Shown: positions 4,871 through 46,381 of the stretch, one piece after another | Layout: every line of letters begins with the position of its first letter | Position numbering within the stretch: position 1 is the stretch's first letter | Assembly: GCA_003963075.1 (NCBI GenBank) | Contig: RXJV01000087.1 | Span: 1 to 55,093, forward strand | Direction: 5' to 3' | DNA: 55,093 nucleotides | Source: Burkholderiales bacterium | GTDB taxonomy: Bacteria > Pseudomonadota > Gammaproteobacteria > Burkholderiales > Burkholderiaceae_C | The notes under the pieces: generated by a model | The model's database searches: none | The model's input: the letters and a program-made list of their open reading frames with translations, nothing else | Told to the model about the DNA's origin: nothing | Made by a program: the position numbers and the translations under genes

Positions 4871-5538
4871 CACACGCCGTAGCGGTCGCGGTAGGCCTGC
4901 ACGGCCGGGCGATGGGCGGCCAGTTCGGGCGCACCGGCGAGGTAGGCCAGCAGGTCGGCCAGGTTGGCGATCGCGACCACCGGCAGCCCGTAGCGCTGCT
5001 GCACCTGCTGCACGGCCGAGTGCTCGCTGTCGATGCCGCCCTCGGCCGCCTTTTCCTGGCGGTCCAGCGCGATGGCGACGCCACAGGGGGTCGCGCCGGC
5101 CGCCTCGATCATCTGGATGGATTCACGCACCGAGGTGCCGGCGGAGATGACGTCGTCGATGATCAACACACGGCCCTTGACCGGCGCACCGACCAGGGTG
5201 CCGCCCTCGCCGTGGTCCTTGGCTTCCTTGCGGTTGTAGGCGAAAGGCAGGTTGTGGCCGCGCCGGGCGAGTTCCATTGCCACCGCGGCCGCCAGCGTGA
5301 TGCCCTTGTAGGCCGGGCCGAAGATCATGTCGAAGGCCAGGCCCGAGGCGATCAGGCGTTCGGCATAGAAGCCGGCGAGACGGCCCAGCTTGGCGCCGTC
5401 GTCGAACAGGCCGGCGTTGAAGAAATAGGGGCTGAGCCGGCCGGCCTTGGTCTTGAACTCGCCGAAGCGCAGCACGCCGGCCTCGACGGCGAACGCGACA
5501 AAGGACTGGGCGAGGGCATCGGTGGGCGCGGCGGACAT
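4870..5538 (-). CDS. pyrE: Orotate phosphoribosyltransferase
   Basis: Transfers the phosphoribosyl group of PRPP to orotate to give OMP in de novo pyrimidine synthesis. The 222-aa product carries the PRPP-binding loop [13 protein letters not shown] (residues 124-136). It also has the mobile-loop lysines/His in [11 protein letters not shown] (103-113), the dimer-type active site of this family. The start at 5538 (MSAAPTD) is preferred to an in-frame start 12 codons upstream, because that extension would run into the terminator hairpin. Its stop overlaps the start of the DUF4124 gene. Confidence 0.96.
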
Positions 5539-5558
5539 GGCGATCGATTCTAGGGGCC

Positions 5559-5596
5559 AAAAAAAGCGGCCCATCCCCTAGAGAGGGGCGGGCCGC
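5559..5596 (-). terminator. Intrinsic terminator of the TonB-dependent receptor gene
   Basis: Read on the minus strand, GCGGCCC (5596-5590 region) pairs with GGGCCGC, with an inner CCCCT/AGGGG stem and a small loop. Seven U residues follow (plus-strand A-run 5559-5565). It lies 47 bp after the receptor stop and 21 bp before the pyrE start, so it insulates pyrE from receptor transcription. Confidence 0.88.
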
Positions 5597-5643
5597 CAGC
5601 AGGTTTTCACCGAGTCGCGGGCGAGGCCCGCGGGTCGTTGGCC

Positions 5644-7923
5644 TCAGAAGTTGGCCTTGAACTGCAGGCCATAGCTGCGCGGCTCGTTGACGATGCCGGT
5701 CAGGTTGTTGAAGTCGATGGCCGCGATGATCTGGCGGTGGTTGGTGATGTTGCGCGAGTAGGCCGCCACCTCGTACTTGCCTGCCGCCCAGCCGTAGCCG
5801 ACGCGCAGACCGCCCTCCAGCGCAGACTTGGCGGTGTATTCCTTGGCCTCATACAGGAACATGTTGTACTTGTCCTTGTAGGCCCAGTCGGTGAGCACGG
5901 TGAGTTCGCCGTCGCCGATCTCGGTGCTGTACTTCAGCGTCCAGTTCCACACCACCTTAGGCGCTCGCGGCAATGGGTTGCCGTTGATGCTCACGATCTT
6001 GTCCTTGGGATCAAAGCCGGGCACCAGCGGATCGAGCACCGTACAAGGAGCGCCACATGCACGCACAAACAGGTTCGGGTCCTTGATCTTCGTGTCGTTA
6101 TAAGAGAGCCCCAGCGTCGTGCGCCAGTCGCGCGCAATGATCGCCTGAGCATCCAGCTCAAAGCCCTGGCCCTCAGCCTTCGCGGCGTTGACCAGGCGAT
6201 TTTGGTTGAGAGTGCCACTGCCCGCTGTCAGCTGAAGATCTTTGGTGCGGTACTTGAACAGCGTGCCCGAAATACGTGCCGTCTTGTCCAGCAGGTCTGA
6301 CTTGAAACCCACCTCGACCGATAGGTTCTTCTCTGACTGTCCGACGGAGAAAGAATTGGCGAAGAGGTTGCGGCCTTGGATGGAGGGAGCGCGGTAGCCA
6401 GTGGCAATCCGCGTGAAGACGCTGTTGTTCGCGTCGATGGTGTAGTTGGCCCCCAGTTCCCAGGACGTGTTTTTGGACCTTGGATTGGTTGACAGTGGCG
6501 TCAGCGAAGTGTCGGAGAACGGCGGCGCCACGAGGCGCTGACCGAACCAGTCCTTTTTGTCGTCGGTGTAGCGGACACCGCCACGGATCTTCAGAGCCGG
6601 CGTCACGGCGTAATTGGCATTGGCGAAGATCGCGTAAGACTTGGCGTCCTGCGTCTGATACGAATAGCCATTTTGCGGGTCGCCCGCTGTGAAGCTGTTG
6701 AAGTTGAAGCTCTCAACTTTCAGCTTTTCGTTGAAATAGTAAACGCCAGCGATCCACTGCAGCGGGTTGTTGCCCGTGGACTGCAAGCGGAACTCTTGGG
6801 TCACCTGACGCAGAGAGGGCAGGCCGTCGGCCGTCTGCGCATCGAAGGGCAGATTGGCCTTCTGGCTGCCGTAGTCAGGGCCAGAGACGCCGGTAACGGG
6901 GTCTGGACCAAAGCCGCCATCCACGTCGCCGCGGCTGTAAAACTTGGCATGGTCATAGGCGGTGATGGAGAACAACGACATGCCGTCGAAGTCCCAGCGC
7001 AGGCGGGCGCTGACCTCGCTGGAGGTCAGGGTCTGGGTGTTGTAGCCGTCGGTCGGGTAGTAGCCGTCGCTATAGCCATCGACGAGGTCGTTGGTGCCCT
7101 GCTTGATGATGTTCGCGCGGAACGTCGTCGCAGTACCCTTGTAATCACGCGCCTGAACCTTGAACAGGCCCTCGAAGCCGCCGTTCTTGTAGCGGGCCTG
7201 GATGCGCAGCGCCTTGTCGTTGTAGCCTTCCAGATCCGAGGTCGCATTGGGCCGTGGGTTGTGAACGCGGTTGTCCTGGCGCTGGACGATGCCGGCCACG
7301 CGCATCTGCCAGTCCTGGTTCAGCGGCACGTTGACGGCAGCCTCCAGGTTGGCGGAGTTCCAGCGGCCATAGCTGAAGTTGGCATAGCCCTCGAGGCGCT
7401 TGCCCGGCTTGACCGAGTCGAACTTCATCACGCCGGCGGGCGAGTTGCGGCCGAACAGCGTGCCCTGCGGGCCGCGCAGCAGCTCGACCTGCTCCATGTC
7501 GAACACCGGGAAGCCCTTCAGCGCCACGCTTTCCTGCACCACATCGTCGTAGACGAGGCCCACGGGTTGCGACGCGTTCAGATCGAAGTCGGTGTTGCCC
7601 AGGCCGCGCACGTAAAAGCGCGGGAAGGTGCGGCCAAAGTCGGATTCGATGTTCAGGCTGGGTACCTTGCCGGACAGTGCACGGATGTCCTGGCCGCTGG
7701 CGTTGTAGGTGTCCAACTCCTCGGACTTGATCGCCGAGATCGACAGCGGGACTTCCTTCAGGTTCTCCGCCCGGCGGCTCCCGGTGACGATGACGGCTTC
7801 GAGCTGGTTGACATCCTTCTTCGCCTCGGGCGCCTGCGTCGCCTGGGCATGGGCGGCCTGCAGCGGGAAGGCCGCGCCCAGCGCTAGCGCGAGCAGGGTC
7901 AGGGAAATGCGGTGTTTCGGCAT
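5644..7923 (-). CDS. TonB-dependent outer-membrane receptor
   Basis: A 759-aa outer-membrane beta-barrel for TonB/ExbBD-energised uptake of a siderophore or other large nutrient; the substrate is not evident. The signal peptide (residues 1-27) starts MPKHRISLTLLALALG. A TonB-box-like stretch (LEAVIVTG) comes next, then the plug domain with VRGLGN and the family signature LLRGPQGTLFGRNSPAG. A long barrel ends in the usual aromatic C-terminus (QFKANF). Two cysteines close together (ACGAPC) sit in a late extracellular loop. The gene is monocistronic, with its own terminator, and diverges from xth. No FecI/FecR-type regulators or TonB genes are adjacent, so its substrate and control cannot be read from context. 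Confidence 0.93.
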   Translation of the reverse strand: MPKHRISLTLLALALGAAFPLQAAHAQATQAPEAKKDVNQLEAVIVTGSRRAENLKEVPLSISAIKSEELDTYNASGQDIRALSGKVPSLNIESDFGRTFPRFYVRGLGNTDFDLNASQPVGLVYDDVVQESVALKGFPVFDMEQVELLRGPQGTLFGRNSPAGVMKFDSVKPGKRLEGYANFSYGRWNSANLEAAVNVPLNQDWQMRVAGIVQRQDNRVHNPRPNATSDLEGYNDKALRIQARYKNGGFEGLFKVQARDYKGTATTFRANIIKQGTNDLVDGYSDGYYPTDGYNTQTLTSSEVSARLRWDFDGMSLFSITAYDHAKFYSRGDVDGGFGPDPVTGVSGPDYGSQKANLPFDAQTADGLPSLRQVTQEFRLQSTGNNPLQWIAGVYYFNEKLKVESFNFNSFTAGDPQNGYSYQTQDAKSYAIFANANYAVTPALKIRGGVRYTDDKKDWFGQRLVAPPFSDTSLTPLSTNPRSKNTSWELGANYTIDANNSVFTRIATGYRAPSIQGRNLFANSFSVGQSEKNLSVEVGFKSDLLDKTARISGTLFKYRTKDLQLTAGSGTLNQNRLVNAAKAEGQGFELDAQAIIARDWRTTLGLSYNDTKIKDPNLFVRACGAPCTVLDPLVPGFDPKDKIVSINGNPLPRAPKVVWNWTLKYSTEIGDGELTVLTDWAYKDKYNMFLYEAKEYTAKSALEGGLRVGYGWAAGKYEVAAYSRNITNHRQIIAAIDFNNLTGIVNEPRSYGLQFKANF

Positions 7924-24603: not shown

Positions 24604-25425
24604 TCACTTGACGCCAGGCTTGGGCACCACCGCCGCCATCGCGGCCTTGAAGCCCGGGTCAGCGAGCAGGGCATTCCATGCCGCCATCAGCGAGGTGTAG
24701 TCGGCACTCGCGATCTTCTTGGCCTTGATGGCCGCGCTGATCGCGGCATTCAAGCGCACCAGGGCGTCGTACTTCGCGAAGCCGCGGCCCTGGAGCTGGG
24801 TCACCGCGTAGTTGCTGTAGCCCCAGGCGTTGTTCAGGCGGTTCCAGTCGCCGCTGCCGGGTTGCACCCAGGTGACGGGCGCCGGGGCCGGAGCGGGCTT
24901 GGGTTCTGCCACCGGCGCGGGTGCCGGTGCGGTGGCAGCAGGCTTGCCGCAGGTACCGGTCACGTGGATGCGCACCCAGCCGGTGCTGGGCGCGCCGCTG
25001 TCGGCGTTGATCACGAGACGCACGTTGTTGGCGCCGGCCACCAGATAGGGCTGGGTCCAGATGGTCTTGACGGCCTTGGGCTCCAGGGTGATCTGGGTGT
25101 TCTGCGCGATCAGCGCGTCGTTGCTGTAGAGGCGGTTGGTGCTGCCGGCCACCGGCGTGGCGCTGACCTCGTCGTACTGCAGGTTGAAGGCGCAGCGGCC
25201 GAGCGCGGTCAGAAAGGCATCCTTGTCGCTGACGGTGATCTCGGGCAGCTTGCCCGTGGCCGTGCCGGCAGGGCTGACCAGCAGCGGCGCGGCCTGGGCG
25301 AGCACGGTCTTGCCGTCGCTCTTGACGAGGCGCACCTGGCCGGTGAGCTGGGCCGTAGGCGTGGCGGCGAGGGCGATCTGGCTCCACAGGGCCAGGGCGG
25401 TGGCGGTGACGAGGCGGGACTTCAT
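24604..25425 (-). CDS. Unrecognised exported protein under c-di-GMP riboswitch control
   Basis: A 273-aa protein I do not recognise. A signal peptide (residues 1-20, ending QIALA) is followed by a beta-rich domain to about residue 175. This domain contains two cysteines (GRCAFNL and TGTCGK) that could form a disulfide. A Pro/Ala linker of about 25 residues then leads to a C-terminal helical segment of about 70 residues (WNRLNNAWGYSNYAVTQLQ; LNAAISAAIKAKKI). The domain-linker-domain layout suggests a surface or matrix protein. The GEMM-I riboswitch about 90 nt upstream puts it in the c-di-GMP regulon, so a role in biofilm, adhesion or motility is inferred. AAGGA lies 10 nt before the ATG. No other gene shares the transcript. 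Confidence 0.85.
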   Translation of the reverse strand: MKSRLVTATALALWSQIALAATPTAQLTGQVRLVKSDGKTVLAQAAPLLVSPAGTATGKLPEITVSDKDAFLTALGRCAFNLQYDEVSATPVAGSTNRLYSNDALIAQNTQITLEPKAVKTIWTQPYLVAGANNVRLVINADSGAPSTGWVRIHVTGTCGKPAATAPAPAPVAEPKPAPAPAPVTWVQPGSGDWNRLNNAWGYSNYAVTQLQGRGFAKYDALVRLNAAISAAIKAKKIASADYTSLMAAWNALLADPGFKAAMAAVVPKPGVK

Positions 25426-25495
25426 GGAATGGACATCCTTGGGTATGGGTTGGAGGTGGGTTGGCAGTAGCCGACACCCCCTCGGATGTCACGCT

Positions 25496-25524
25496 GCGGA
25501 CGCGTCCTCGTCCGCCTAGGGCGG
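25496..25524 (-). promoter_or_regulatory. Possible riboswitch expression platform with exclusive stems
   Basis: Just after the aptamer, CCGCC (25524-25520) can pair with GGCGG (25516-25512). Alternatively GCGGAC (25515-25510) can pair with GTCCGC (25501-25496). The two stems share four bases. The first also competes with the 3' strand of P1. Ligand binding would favour P1 plus the second stem. Neither stem has a U-run or hides the ribosome-binding site directly, so the mode of control is open. Confidence 0.5.
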
Positions 25525-25602
25525 CCCCGCTGTCTGTTGCCCTGTAGGGCACGAAGACCGGAAGCTTTGCGTCCCCGCCTTTCAACGGGTTTGCCGACTG
25601 CA
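25515..25602 (-). ncRNA. Cyclic-di-GMP-I (GEMM-I) riboswitch
   Basis: On the minus strand the conserved core reads in order GGCAAACC, a CCCGTT-GAAA-GGCGGG hairpin with GNRA tetraloop, GGGACGCAAAGC, CCGGTCT, a variable hairpin (GCCC...GGGC), AGACAGCGGGG and CCGCC. Every block of the GEMM-I consensus is present in the right order and spacing. The closing P1 stem can form between CGGC (25596-25593) and GCCG (25525-25522). The GAAA loop would dock on the receptor in the second helix, as in the Vibrio Vc2 structure. It controls the exported-protein gene at 24604-25425. Confidence 0.95.
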
Positions 25603-25735
25603 TGGGCGCCAGTGTGCAGATGCAAGCCATGTTTCGTCTGTGCGCCAGTTCACGAGTGGGCACCCCCGCCCGGCGAGCGGCGGGCGCGCCGCGATGGGCG
25701 GTTTCCGGCGCCTTCGCGGGCTTGGGCCGGGCGTT

Positions 25736-27187
25736 TCAGCGCAGCCGACCGACCGGCAACGCCGCCGGTTGCCGCGCCAACCGGCGCCAGCGCCACACAC
25801 CGCCCGCGAGGGTCACCCCCAGCACGGGTAGGGCCAACGCGGGCAGGGGGAGCGCGAGCGTTTGTTGGAGGAACTGCCCGAGAACGGCCGTCATGAACCA
25901 CAGGAACATGGGCACGGCGGCGGTCCAGGCATTGGGCGGGCGCAGGCGCGCGAGCGGCCGGGTCGCCGACCACACCAGCCATGGCAAGGCCACGACGGCG
26001 ATCCAGATCATCAGCGACTCGCCGGAAGTCCAGCCCAGTGGCAGCGCGAGCGCGGCCAGCACCAGCCAGACCCCGATCGCGTGGCGCAGCGCAATCCCGG
26101 CGATGGCGCGGTTCTGCGCCGCACCCTGAGGCATGTGGGGCAGCAGCCGCAGCAGGGCCTGCTCGCGGCGGCTGTGCCAGAGCGCCTGGGAGCGCATCAG
26201 CACGGGTTGGACCATGGATGTGCCCAGGCCAAAGGCGATGCCGAAGCTGCCCATGCGCAGCATCTCGCGCCACGAGATTTCGGTGAACACCATCGCCAGG
26301 CCGAGCACGACGAGCAGGAAGACGGCGAGCCAGGCCAGCCCGAGCAGCTGGTAGGTCCAGTGCTGGTTGCCGTGCAGCACCAGCTCGGCCCGCGCCATCA
26401 CGCTGCCCAGCCGGCGGTTGTCGGCCCGCGCGAGCACGTGGCGGCGCCAGGCGCCCAGCACGGTGTTGAAGGGGCGGCTGACCCGGTCCAGCCCGCCCAG
26501 GGCCTCAGCGGGGCTGACCACCTTGCCCTGCAGCTGCGCCCGTTGGGCGGCGCGCATGGCCCGTTGGCGCTGGTAGACGCGGCGGTGATGGGTATCGCCG
26601 TCGCCGAAGACCGCGGTGACGAGGCCGGCCAGGGCGAGCAGGGCCAGCGCAAGCAGCCCGTCGGTGTGGGCCTGCCACAGCGAGACGGCGGCCTGCCAGA
26701 GCGGTTGCAGCGGTGCGCCCAGGGCGCCCAGCAGCGGCGCGGCGAAAGGGAGGACCACCCACAGCCACCAGGCCCGCAGGGTCCACAGGGTGACGACCAT
26801 GATGACCGCATTGCCCAGCAGCAGGGCCTGCCACGTCAGCATCGGCGGCAGCATGGCCCAGGACATCAGCGCGGCAAGCGCCGTGCAGATGGCCCAGGCG
26901 AGCAATGCCGCGGCGCGCAAGGCGCGCAGGTGGCCGGGCACGCAGCGCGCGGCGATGGGGTGGTTCTGCTCCTGCAGGTTGTAGCCCAGCGCGATCCATG
27001 TGCCGTGGATCACGACGAGCAGAATGCCCGCCGGCATCGCCCAGCGCACCGGGCCCTGCAGCAGGACCAGGCCGCCGATCAGGGAGAGCCCCAGCAGCGC
27101 GGCGATGGCGCGCCGGCCCCAGGGCGCGGTGAGATCGCGCTGCCGCCAGGGGGCGAGCAGGGTCTGTGAGAGCTGGGTGGCGGTCAT
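25736..27187 (-). CDS. ABC transporter permease (YtrA-linked exporter)
   Basis: A 483-aa membrane protein with about ten to twelve hydrophobic segments. A central cytoplasmic stretch rich in Arg/Gln (HHRRVYQRQRAMRAAQRAQ, about residues 200-220) separates two membrane blocks. It shares a 1-nt TGATG overlap with the ATP-binding gene upstream, so the two work as one exporter. The transported substrate is unknown. GntR/YtrA-controlled ABC pairs in other bacteria respond to cell-wall antibiotics, but that cannot be assumed here. It is longer than a typical single six-helix permease, so it may be an internally duplicated unit. Confidence 0.82.
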   Translation of the reverse strand: MTATQLSQTLLAPWRQRDLTAPWGRRAIAALLGLSLIGGLVLLQGPVRWAMPAGILLVVIHGTWIALGYNLQEQNHPIAARCVPGHLRALRAAALLAWAICTALAALMSWAMLPPMLTWQALLLGNAVIMVVTLWTLRAWWLWVVLPFAAPLLGALGAPLQPLWQAAVSLWQAHTDGLLALALLALAGLVTAVFGDGDTHHRRVYQRQRAMRAAQRAQLQGKVVSPAEALGGLDRVSRPFNTVLGAWRRHVLARADNRRLGSVMARAELVLHGNQHWTYQLLGLAWLAVFLLVVLGLAMVFTEISWREMLRMGSFGIAFGLGTSMVQPVLMRSQALWHSRREQALLRLLPHMPQGAAQNRAIAGIALRHAIGVWLVLAALALPLGWTSGESLMIWIAVVALPWLVWSATRPLARLRPPNAWTAAVPMFLWFMTAVLGQFLQQTLALPLPALALPVLGVTLAGGVWRWRRLARQPAALPVGRLR

Positions 27188-42236: not shown

Positions 42237-44339
42237 ATGCACGCTTCCCTGGCTTTCCGATTCGCGCTCGGTGCCGCCCTGTTGGCACTCCTGCTGGCTG
42301 CCTGCTCCGGCGGCGGGGATGGCCCTGCGCCGGCGGCGGCGCCCGTCGACGCCGCGCTGGCTCGGGACCTGGATCGCATCGAACGCGCTTCGATGGCGCG
42401 ACCCGCCCAGTTCGAGCAGGAGCTGCGCGCACGCGGTGAAGCCCTGCCCGCCGGGAGTGCCGCGCGGCTGGATGTCATCGCGCTGCGCGGTCTGCTCGCC
42501 GCCAGGGCGCGCGACCGTGCGCTGACCGAGCAGCTGGCCGAGCAGCTGCGCAACTGGCCGGCCGGTGAGGGCCGTGCCAGCGCGGTCGTCGCGTCGGCAA
42601 GTGTCGGCGCGTCCTACGTCATCCAGAGCGCCGACATGCGCGAGGCACGCAAGCAGCTGATGGCGGTCAGTGCGGCCGAGGTCGAGGCGGCGGCGCCGGT
42701 CCACCGCTGGCGCTACCACGAGCAACTGGCCGCGGTCACCAGCGACACCGGCGACCTGGACGCGTCGCTGGCCCATTGCCACGCGGCATTGCGCCTGGCC
42801 GAGCAGATCGGCCAGCCGTGGCGCCGGGCGTTGTCTTTGGTGCAGCTGGCCTTCACGACCTTCCGTGCCGACACGCCGGCGCGCGCCCGCGAGTTCATCG
42901 CGCAGGCGCTGGTCGAGGCGCAGAAGGATCCCGACCCGATGACGCTGAACCAGGTCTACACGATGCGCGGCATCGTCCACACGGACGATGGCGGCGACCC
43001 GGCCGTCGTGCTGCAGGCCTGGTCGGATGCGCTGGACCAGGCCACCCGCGCCGGCGCGGACGCGGTGCGGGCGCTGGGCCTGGCCAACCTGGCTGACTAC
43101 CATCTGCGCCAGGGCCACCCGGCGCGGGCGCTGGAGCTGGCCGAGCAGGCGCTGCCGCTGGCCCGCGCGACGCGCAGCCTCAGCGCCGAAAGCGCCGCCC
43201 GTTCCAACATCGGCCTGGCCAAGATTGCGCTTGGGAAGGTTGCAGAGGGTCGCGCCGAAGCACGGGCTGCCATCACGCTGGACGAGCAGCAGGGCTCGCT
43301 GGCCTATGCCGCCGACGGCTGGCTCGATCTGGGCAGATTCCTGGAGCGCGCCGGCGACCTGCCCGGCGCCGTGGCGGCCTTCCGCGAGCATCGGCGCGCC
43401 CGTGACCGGCTGCTGCGTGACGAAACCCGCAAGCTGCTGCTCGAGGCCCAGGAACGCCAGGATGCCGAGCAGCGCGCCCGTGACATCGAGCTGCTGAACC
43501 GCGACAACGCGCTGAAGGCCGAGCAGGTCCACCAGCAGAGCCTGGCGCTGACGCTGTGGTCGGCGCTGGGAGGTTGCATCGTGGTCTCGCTCGGCCTGCT
43601 GTACCAGGCGTTCCGCCGCGTGCGGCGCGCCAACGAGGCCCTGGCCCACAGCAATGCCTCGCTGAAGCGCCAGAGCGAGACCGATCCGCTCACCGGTCTG
43701 GCCAACCGGCGCCACTTCCAGGCCGCGGTGAAGAGCCTGTCGGGCGAGGGCGGCCTGGCCGCAAGCGTCTTCCTGATCGACATCGACCACTTCAAGCGCA
43801 TCAATGATGCGTTCGGCCACGCCGCCGGCGACGCGGTTCTGGTCGAGATCGCCCGCCGGCTGCGCGAGGCGGTCCGCGAGGACGACCTGATCGTGCGCTG
43901 GGGCGGCGAAGAGTTTCTGATCGTGGTGCGCACCCGCGAGGGCCTGTTCGCGCCACAGCTCGCGCAGCGCATGCTGGACCTGATCGGCGGCCGGCCGGTG
44001 CAGCACGAGGCCAGCGAGATCCCCGCGACCGCCTCGATCGGCTTCGTCAGCCTGCCGGTGCCGCCGCATGGTCTGCGCCTGCCCTGGGAGAGCGCGATCG
44101 ATCTGGTCGACACGGTGATGTATCTGGCCAAGTCCCAGGGCCGCAACAAGGCCTATGGGGTGGACCGCATCGACGCCGAGGACGCGCTGTCTGCGGCCCA
44201 GCTGACCGCGCGGCTCGAATCGGCCTGGAATGAGGGTCTGGTCGGCCTGCAGGCGCTGCATGGCCCCGCCGTGGCGCGCACGACGGACTTCGGCAGTGAG
44301 ATTCCCATGAGCGGCTCCGGCGCCGCCGCCAGCGCATGA
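42237..44339 (+). CDS. TPR-GGDEF diguanylate cyclase, first copy (lipoprotein)
   Basis: A 700-aa membrane cyclase. An N-terminal lipobox (LLLAACSG) would anchor it to the envelope. Residues 40-420 are TPR-like helical repeats, exposed to the periplasm. One membrane helix (about 436-458) leads to a cytoplasmic GGDEF domain. The active site is GGEEF at 556-560, and the inhibitory I-site RxxD is present as REDD five residues upstream. It should make c-di-GMP and be product-inhibited. The stop overlaps the second copy's start by 4 nt. Any gap to the ABC ATPase is only 112 bp, so a shared promoter is possible. Confidence 0.93.
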   Translation: MHASLAFRFALGAALLALLLAACSGGGDGPAPAAAPVDAALARDLDRIERASMARPAQFEQELRARGEALPAGSAARLDVIALRGLLAARARDRALTEQLAEQLRNWPAGEGRASAVVASASVGASYVIQSADMREARKQLMAVSAAEVEAAAPVHRWRYHEQLAAVTSDTGDLDASLAHCHAALRLAEQIGQPWRRALSLVQLAFTTFRADTPARAREFIAQALVEAQKDPDPMTLNQVYTMRGIVHTDDGGDPAVVLQAWSDALDQATRAGADAVRALGLANLADYHLRQGHPARALELAEQALPLARATRSLSAESAARSNIGLAKIALGKVAEGRAEARAAITLDEQQGSLAYAADGWLDLGRFLERAGDLPGAVAAFREHRRARDRLLRDETRKLLLEAQERQDAEQRARDIELLNRDNALKAEQVHQQSLALTLWSALGGCIVVSLGLLYQAFRRVRRANEALAHSNASLKRQSETDPLTGLANRRHFQAAVKSLSGEGGLAASVFLIDIDHFKRINDAFGHAAGDAVLVEIARRLREAVREDDLIVRWGGEEFLIVVRTREGLFAPQLAQRMLDLIGGRPVQHEASEIPATASIGFVSLPVPPHGLRLPWESAIDLVDTVMYLAKSQGRNKAYGVDRIDAEDALSAAQLTARLESAWNEGLVGLQALHGPAVARTTDFGSEIPMSGSGAAASA

Positions 44340-46381
44340 AGCCGGCACGCCAGCTGCTGGCCGCGCTGCTGCTGGCCTGGGCCGGCGGCGCGTCGGCCAC
44401 GCCGGTCGCGCCACCCGACCCGGCCGCCGAAGACCTCTGGCTGGCGGGCGTCCAGCGCCGTGCCTTCGACGATCCTGCGGCCATGCTGGCCGAGCTGCAG
44501 CGGCGCTGGCCGGCCCACGCCGAGCCCGGCCAGCCGCGCGAGGCCCCGTGGCTGCTGGCGCGCGGCCGCGTGCTGCTGGCCGCCGGGGCGCTCGATGCCG
44601 CCGACGCGGTCGCGACGCAGCTGATGGCTCTGAGCGGCGGTGCCGAGCGCGGCTGGCTGCTGCGTGCCCTGGCCCAGGAACGCGCCGGCAAGTCCGGCAG
44701 CGCCCTGGCCGCACGTGCACTCGACGGGCTGAATGCACGCTGCCCGGTCGGCGAGGAGGCCCGCGCGGTGCGCGAGCTGGGCTGTGATTTCCGCAGTGCC
44801 TGGGAGGCCTTGAACCTGATCCAGCGAGACCAGCTCAACCAGGGCGAGTTCATCGGCGCCGAGAGCAACACGCGGCGCAGCCTGGCCCTGGCCCGCGCCG
44901 GCGGCGACAAGCATCTCGCCGTGCTCAGCATGGGCACGCTGGCCATCGTGCTGCAGTCCCAGGACCTCGGCGATGCGGCACGTGCGCAGCTGCGCGCGGC
45001 CGAGGCCGAGTCCCAGGGCGACCCGATCCTGGGCGCCCATGTGCGGCATGCCCAGGCCGTGGTCGAGCGCCGTGCCGGCGACGGGGCTGCGGCGCGCAGC
45101 GCGCTCGAGGCGGCGCTGGTGCTCGCGGAACAGGCCGATGCGCCACATATGGCGGCCGTGCTGCGCTCCAACCTGGTTGACGCCTACATGCATCAGGGCC
45201 AGCTCAAGGAGGCGCTGGCGGTCGGCCAGCGGGCGATGCCGGTGTTGCAACGCTTCGGCGATCTGTACTTCGAACGCCTGCTGCACCACAACCTCGCGGT
45301 CGCCTACATCAAGCTGCGGCAGTTCGACATCGCCCGCCAGCAGCTCGGCCGGATCCAGGAGTCCAGCGCCGATTCGACCGGCCTCGCGCAGCGTGGTCGC
45401 GAGCTGCGCGAACTCGGCGACACCTGGGCCGAGGCCGGCCAGTACAAGGAGGCCCTGGCGGCCTACGCCGCCGAACGCGAGCTGAATGCGCGAGCCAATG
45501 AGCGCAACCGCGCGGCAGCCCTCGAAGACCTGCGCCGCAAATACGACAGCGTGGCCAAGCAGCGCGACCTCGACCTGCTCGCGCGCGACGGCCAGCTCAA
45601 GGACCAGCAGCTGTCCAACCACAGGCTGGCGCAGCAGGTCGGCATCGCGCTGGGTGCGTTGCTGCTGCTGTCGCTGGCCCTGATCGGCGTGACCCTGCTG
45701 CGCATGCGCCGCGCACAGGCGCAGCTCAAGGTCAACCAGAACCTGCTGCGCGCGCAGAGCGAACGTGACCCGCTGACCCATCTGTCCAACCGCCGGCATT
45801 TCCTCGCCGTCATGGAGCAGCGCAGGCAGCAGGCCGATGCCGGCCCCGAGGGCTTCCATGGCGCGCTGATGATGGTCGACATCGACCACTTCAAGAACGT
45901 CAATGACTGGCATGGCCACGCGGCTGGCGACGCCGTCATCGTCGAGGTCGCGCGGCGCATCCGGGCGGCGGTGCGCGACACCGACCTGGTGGTGCGCTGG
46001 GGCGGCGAGGAGTTCCTCGTCTTCTCTCCCGAACTGCCGGGCACCGACCTTGCGCAGATGGCCGACCGCATCCTGCGCGGCATCGGCGGCGAGCCGATCA
46101 TGACGGGTGAGGGTCCGCTGCGTATCACCGCGTCCATCGGTTTCGCGAGCTTCCCGCTCGGCGGCTCGTTCGGATCCTGTCTGCGGCTGCAATGGGAGCA
46201 GGCGGTCAACTGGGCCGACATGGTGCTCTACAAGGCCAAGGCCGAGGGGCGCAACCGGGGGGTCGGCATCCAGGCCGTCGACGCCGGCGACGGCGACACC
46301 CTGGCCCACATCCAGCAGGACTTCGACGCCGCCTGCCGCAATGGGCAGGTGAAGCTGAACCTGCTGCCGGGGCCTGCATGA
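44336..46381 (+). CDS. TPR-GGDEF diguanylate cyclase, second copy
   Basis: A 681-aa paralogue of the preceding gene with the same layout: signal peptide (MKPARQLLAALLLAWAGGASA), TPR region, membrane helix at about 435-457, and GGDEF with GGEEF at 556-560. The catalytic motif falls at the same residue number as in the first copy, so the two arose by tandem duplication without length change upstream. The I-site is RDTD. It lacks a lipobox, so the first copy is lipidated and the second is not. Its stop overlaps the Bug gene's start (ATGATG), giving three coupled genes. Confidence 0.93.
   Translation: MKPARQLLAALLLAWAGGASATPVAPPDPAAEDLWLAGVQRRAFDDPAAMLAELQRRWPAHAEPGQPREAPWLLARGRVLLAAGALDAADAVATQLMALSGGAERGWLLRALAQERAGKSGSALAARALDGLNARCPVGEEARAVRELGCDFRSAWEALNLIQRDQLNQGEFIGAESNTRRSLALARAGGDKHLAVLSMGTLAIVLQSQDLGDAARAQLRAAEAESQGDPILGAHVRHAQAVVERRAGDGAAARSALEAALVLAEQADAPHMAAVLRSNLVDAYMHQGQLKEALAVGQRAMPVLQRFGDLYFERLLHHNLAVAYIKLRQFDIARQQLGRIQESSADSTGLAQRGRELRELGDTWAEAGQYKEALAAYAAERELNARANERNRAAALEDLRRKYDSVAKQRDLDLLARDGQLKDQQLSNHRLAQQVGIALGALLLLSLALIGVTLLRMRRAQAQLKVNQNLLRAQSERDPLTHLSNRRHFLAVMEQRRQQADAGPEGFHGALMMVDIDHFKNVNDWHGHAAGDAVIVEVARRIRAAVRDTDLVVRWGGEEFLVFSPELPGTDLAQMADRILRGIGGEPIMTGEGPLRITASIGFASFPLGGSFGSCLRLQWEQAVNWADMVLYKAKAEGRNRGVGIQAVDAGDGDTLAHIQQDFDAACRNGQVKLNLLPGPA

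Follow-up and report, generated by a model that had tools for sequence, protein, structure and literature searches.

A c-di-GMP-I (GEMM-I) riboswitch aptamer lies in the 5' leader of a gene for an exported protein in the window, the whole 55,093-nucleotide stretch of Burkholderiales DNA analysed here, and the link to this so far undescribed family of exported proteins is genuine and conserved. We consider it probable that the RNA functions as a c-di-GMP-I riboswitch controlling this one gene, which encodes an exported two-domain protein, most likely through translation initiation. As an RNA, the element is unremarkable within an established class; what is new is the small, undescribed, riboswitch-linked protein family, whose role is probably at the cell surface or in the matrix. 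The aptamer comprises two features:

25517 to 25605, minus strand: c-di-GMP-I (GEMM-I) riboswitch aptamer, RF01051, matched by cmscan over the full model at 66.2 bits
25515 to 25606, minus strand: P1 closing stem, CCCA (25606-25603) with UAGG (25518-25515), from the alignment and pair counts

The first-pass annotation had read all GEMM-I blocks on the minus strand and proposed an Rfam scan as a check. In that scan, RF01051 matches from model position 1 to 87 of 87 with 66.2 bits against a curated gathering cut-off of 35 (E 8.3e-11), far over the threshold; it is the only match above the gathering score that cmscan finds in the whole window, and a whole-genome search returns the same aptamer at E 1.7e-12. 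The place given originally, 25515-25602, stands, with ends that differ by 2-3 bases from those of cmscan. P1 can close, as had been claimed, with three pairs and one C-A mismatch, and the stem is perfect (CCCA/UGGG) in 3 of the 4 aligned genus relatives. Across the aligned relatives, helices P2 and P3 are kept, with 96.8% of 220 cells paired as against 31-47% in slid controls, and nine cells are changed on both sides, a number reached in 0 of 500 shuffles. The covarying pairs number two, both in the P3 tip, which does not exceed the shuffles (328 of 500 as high), and P2 hardly varies. By residue numbering, we located the positions that we take to be the ligand contacts G20, A47 and C92; the mapped positions are identical in 10/10 sequences.

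The aptamer class and these contact residues point to c-di-GMP as the ligand. Given 42 GGDEF matches in the genome, some only partial, c-di-GMP synthesis is to be expected; two adjoining GGDEF-domain matches lie within the window itself, at 43677-46258 on the plus strand. Some GEMM-I members bind cGAMP, according to the excerpt of PMC8835794, and RF03167 (c-di-GMP-I-GGC) was retained in preference to RF01051 in 8 of 13 scan matches (duplicate loci counted, and one of them a sedolisin leader). A 3',3'-cGAMP sensor or an aptamer of altered specificity is nevertheless highly unlikely here. RF01051 is the best model for the window, and the RF03167-labelled genus relatives also pass RF01051, at 64.7-70.9 bits. 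The position mapped to G20 is a G in all ten sequences, as in the c-di-GMP rather than the cGAMP type, and a change to A at this position accompanies cGAMP binding in the portion of PMC6274999 that bears on it. Where the GGC model consensus has a G, at the A47 position, all ten sequences have an A. On these scores and this A we reject the RF03167 label as a sign of changed specificity; that cmscan assigns it to L027-L030 and L035 (duplicates L059-L061) despite the A is a labelling trap.

The gene downstream, in the same orientation and beginning 91 nt from the aptamer, was described at first as encoding a 273-residue secreted protein of no nameable family, and this description holds: inspection by eye shows a signal peptide, and the protein (P0001) matches nothing in Pfam or NCBIfam above cut-off. 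Its parts are as follows:

24604 to 25425, minus strand: gene for the 273-aa exported protein P0001, from the translation, relatives and dN/dS
25366 to 25425, minus strand: signal peptide, residues 1-20, Sec-type by eye from the translation (pLDDT below 50 at residues 1-25)
24946 to 25350, minus strand: N-terminal beta-sandwich domain, residues 26-160, from AlphaFold, Foldseek and invariant columns
24868 to 24945, minus strand: Pro-Ala-rich linker, residues 161-186, from the alignment (pLDDT below 50 at 162-176)
24607 to 24867, minus strand: C-terminal helical domain, residues 187-273, from AlphaFold

That this is a real gene follows from its relatives in other genomes and from dN/dS values (NG86) of 0.15-0.60 across the six pairs computed, which show purifying selection. 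The scope of the family was examined with a genome collection scan, which covered 84,980 species with one genome apiece, took two conserved peptides from a four-sequence profile as its probes, and so detects only relatives holding one of the two. It gave 33 pattern matches, nine of which encode relatives: in Pelomonas sp. Root1237 and Root1217, Ideonella alba and Albitalea terrae, and in five metagenome-assembled genomes, of which two are labelled Rhizobacter sp., two Burkholderiales and one Pseudomonadota. Seven of the nine also occur among the other genomes searched, where L004, L059, L060, L061, L005, L006 and L095 are entirely contained in L028, L030, L027, L029, L033, L035 and L034, respectively, and each pair was counted once.

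The first-pass annotation had named homologues lacking the element as one observation that would count against the link. All nine loci encoding relatives carry a GEMM-I aptamer above the gathering score directly upstream and in the same orientation, which makes 10/10 with the window, and the distance from aptamer to start codon is 92-107 nt in the nine. Together with the Rfam score, the nine loci give good support to the placement of the protein in the c-di-GMP regulon that had been proposed. The available sequence around five of these loci (L031-L035) contains neither of the genes that neighbour this one in the genus; shared location alone is therefore no explanation of the aptamer-gene pairing, and the neighbours are ruled out as its cause.

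Within the genus, the gene is present in 5 of 20 genomes, and two further genomes match in the linker only. The upstream neighbour, a 483-aa protein that looks membrane-like by eye, occurs in 19 of the 20, and the gene adjoins it in 5/5 cases. The window's copy of this neighbour (25736-27187, minus strand) belongs to no Pfam family and is 33-52% identical to its genus counterparts; where the adjoining flavin reductase was found, it is 88-94% identical. At 10 of the 14 gene-less sites the flavin reductase gene is within reach on the far side, so that the far side is confirmed at these 10 and not at the other 4, and the gap between the neighbour and flavin reductase matches is 10-37 nt in five sites and 515-616 nt in five. 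Using cmscan on these 19 sites with 1.5-kb flanks, we found the aptamer at 5/5 sites with the gene versus 0/14 without it, sites that are not independent by descent.

These data bear on whether the aptamer might be a relic or passenger and the gene outside c-di-GMP control. Relics do occur, as indicated by one genus genome in which an aptamer precedes only a sedolisin fragment (L089, with 43 C-terminal residues matched). Against such an origin here, aptamer and gene are kept together in 10/10 genomes and are both missing at 14/14 gene-less genus sites, and we give this possibility very little weight.

Searches at wider taxonomic range indicate that the family, as far as it is known, is narrowly distributed. 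With P0001 as query, 17 of 200 family genomes match, strongly only in its own genome, G030, G074 and G096. Most of the other 13 matches (E 3e-5 to 9e-4, short stretches within residues 91-233) look like linker artefacts and were set aside; L040 and L008, the two weak loci whose reading frames were inspected, both look OmpA-like by motif. A second search matched 23 of 399 genomes, and besides the own genome only the match in G472 spans most of the N-domain. This locus (L036, 1306-2151, minus strand; another family) encodes a distant N-domain relative (hhalign probability 98.8), the only one found in another family. Its C-terminus differs, and a search relaxed to E 1 finds no aptamer there, which is the one result that speaks against the regulon placement. 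The N-domain alone was found in 5 of 399 family genomes and the C-domain alone in 5 of 299, the identical five genomes, and in the 299-genome sample the C-terminal domain occurs only in members of the P0001 family. A class sample of 274 genomes yielded only the own genome and one weak match with internal stops. The aptamer scans took in 16 of 22 loci and later 19 of 67; among these, 17 linker-only loci were scanned and none has the element. No match was found among the plasmids of PLSDB, and the literature search returned nothing on P0001 and no paper joining Pelomonas, c-di-GMP and a riboswitch.

The AlphaFold model, for which the ten-sequence protein alignment served as input, has a mean pLDDT of 78.5 and predicts a beta-sandwich at about residues 31-156, an unstructured Pro-Ala linker and four helices between 192 and 266. 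From residue 31 on, block means in the N-domain are 81-91 except for 63 at residues 51-60; the C-terminal helices (192-211, 219-235, 240-254 and 257-266) have block means of 84-95 except for the last three residues. The N-domain cysteines C78 and C159 are invariant in the ten-sequence alignment, and linker length is very variable among relatives. A search of PDB sequences with the protein profile gave no convincing match (best E 0.24). Foldseek ranks 1-42 for the beta-sandwich are UNC119/PDE6D chains (E 4e-6 to 2e-4), and the 50 matches listed have TM-scores of 0.38-0.58 of the target and identities of 8-16%. The CARDB domain (PF1109; chains 2kl6 and 3idu), outranked by the PDE6D/UNC119 chains, may share an Ig-like beta-sandwich with P0001 (TM-score 0.52-0.53 of the target, E ~3e-4). 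It differs in that identity is 14-15% and the Pfam CARDB model matches neither P0001 nor any of the ten aligned members at E up to 1. With TM-scores near 0.5, we take the Foldseek matches as suggesting an Ig-like fold only.

An Ig-like domain, a Pro-Ala tether and a helical domain would most likely make this protein a secreted or periplasmic component of adhesion, the matrix or the envelope. This role is probable on the strength of predicted fold, export and regulon company only. That sensor and gene stay paired in the relatives examined probably links the protein to the changeover from a swimming to a settled life. A periplasmic binding or chaperone-like protein, rather than a part of an adhesive surface or matrix, is a less likely reading that we nonetheless take seriously, given that the best fold matches are PDE6D/UNC119 chains. 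Those proteins bind lipid groups, going by their entry titles. The likeness is offset by the low TM-scores and identities and by the similar score of CARDB; since PDE6D/UNC119 and CARDB are all beta-sandwiches, function is not readable from the fold matches.

The leader between aptamer and gene offers candidate elements for expression control:

25611 to 25616, minus strand: putative -10 box CACACT, a hexamer whose second letter is A and whose sixth is T
25497 to 25514, minus strand: possible hairpin H1 (CGGACG/CGUCCG) right after the aptamer, from pairing among genus sequences
25473 to 25490, minus strand: possible hairpin H2 (GACAU/GUGUC), which excludes the ribosome-site helix
25432 to 25490, minus strand: alternative helix of GACAUCC (25490-25484) with GGAUGUC (25438-25432) in the predicted fold, covering the Shine-Dalgarno sequence AAGGA (25440-25436)

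In 10/10 sequences, a hexamer of this -10-like kind has its end 13-15 nt ahead of the GGCAAACC core, a plain count with no shuffle control. Because a sigma-70 consensus scan finds 0 sites, the evidence for the -10 box is weak, as is the suggestion that the transcript would start at the aptamer from it. Among the five genus sequences, 96.7% of H1 cells and 96% of H2 cells are paired, with one compensatory pair in each hairpin. Covariation in the platform amounts to two pairs only, a level that 44 of 500 shuffles also reach. Neither hairpin is in the minimum-energy fold predicted for the window, where the ribosome-site helix takes precedence over H2.

The ribosome-site region of the window is predicted to be partly closed, and only 4 of 100 shuffles are as closed or more so. 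Leader folding energy is below the shuffle mean in 10/10 leaders (z -1.0 to -3.9). Openness of the ribosome-site region is below the shuffle mean in 9/10, with L035 above it, and accessibility falls within the lowest 5 of 100 shuffles in only 4/10 leaders. The occluding helix is in a different register in the genus relatives. When the aptamer core is forced in the folding model, ribosome-site accessibility in the window goes from 0.29 to 0.29, and larger shifts are seen only in L035 (0.61 to 0.44) and L031 (0.18 to 0.26), in opposite directions. Forcing the core hardly alters accessibility, and the folding model thus demonstrates no switch and points to neither ON nor OFF.

Our working model is that transcription probably begins at the aptamer, that c-di-GMP binding would close P1 and refold the ~90-nt structured leader, and that AAGGA would either be buried by the GACAUCC/GGAUGUC helix or be freed when GACAUCC folds locally as H2. 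Control would then most likely be exerted at translation initiation, which the folding predictions make the likeliest level because the ribosome site looks partly occluded and no terminator was found. The riboswitch could also be real and act on transcription, through a GC-rich or Rho-dependent terminator, or on RNA stability. Platform-only folds place a hairpin at the H1 position in 7 of 10 leaders, though not that of the window, and the class I switches of C. difficile are transcriptional OFF switches according to the excerpt of PMC11477304. The region 25380-25800 contains no terminator-like site with a T run, an absence that says little because shuffles average only 0.4 such sites, and the ribosome-site region tends toward burial relative to shuffles. 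We judge control at these other levels to be possible but distinctly less probable than translational control. Among cyclic-dinucleotide riboswitches, closely related aptamers can serve either ON or OFF switches, according to the title of PMC9262584; our guess, leaning slightly to one side, is that this switch would be ON at high c-di-GMP.

What else the class controls in these bacteria provides context for the protein. Among the 150 of 229 first-look candidates that were scored, the genome has two GEMM-I elements. The second (C102:13414-13500, 78.5 bits; 7415-7501 of L023, minus strand) precedes a gene at 5515-7434 for a sedolisin-like lipoprotein protease, P0002. No Pfam or NCBIfam model matches P0002, and we call it sedolisin-like from its matches to PDB sequences such as 1nlu (E 7e-15). 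Scoring 131 candidates per genome across the genus gave 28 GEMM-I matches in 16 of 20 genomes, and by tblastn the downstream genes encode the sedolisin-like lipoprotein in 12 cases, its fragment in 1, a subtilisin-like protease in 4 and the P0001 protein in 5. Two more precede chemotaxis-receptor-like proteins (recognised by eye; one supplied the query) and four have no assigned target. The subtilisin-like proteases are exported and come from four genus genomes (L083, L084, L085 and L075, position 1501 onward); their label rests on NCBIfam serine-protease matches below cut-offs. Among the four elements without an assigned target, the contig of L068 ends after an apparent lipoprotein start. No long downstream reading frame was found for the elements L086, L087 and L088, and L087 and L088 share a short frame that starts MSEPN. 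Of the five genomes with the P0001 protein, four have the aptamer-sedolisin unit and three the aptamer-subtilisin unit; G598 has neither.

The GEMM-I targets of the genus are thus mainly exported proteases and the P0001 protein, on which its c-di-GMP-I regulon centres. A family that lacks both a name and a domain model, and is known over a narrow range only, thereby gains a testable regulatory setting. If confirmed, the system would provide a single-gene readout of c-di-GMP in these bacteria together with a candidate matrix or adhesion protein.

Compared with the RF01051 class, the RNA is a full-length match in sequence and structure at 66.2 bits, with G20, A47 and C92 kept by mapping; it departs from the norm in that its target family lies outside Pfam and NCBIfam and in having a long structured leader that yielded no terminator. 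The closest parallel for the regulon is in C. difficile, whose c-di-GMP regulon includes the PPEP-1 protease and the CD2831/CD3246 adhesins in the excerpt of PMC11477304. In both cases, the c-di-GMP riboswitches of one genome precede a protease and a protein with Pro-rich stretches, both of them exported. Here, in contrast to what that excerpt describes, the proteases are of other classes (sedolisin-like and subtilisin-like), there is no wall anchor and the switches are class I. We regard the comparison as a lead, not a finding. It is a long shot, by analogy, that the exported proteases and the Pro-Ala-tethered protein are enzyme and substrate in a riboswitch-run extracellular module in which one signal would set both display and release, an independently evolved counterpart of PPEP-1 and CD2831.
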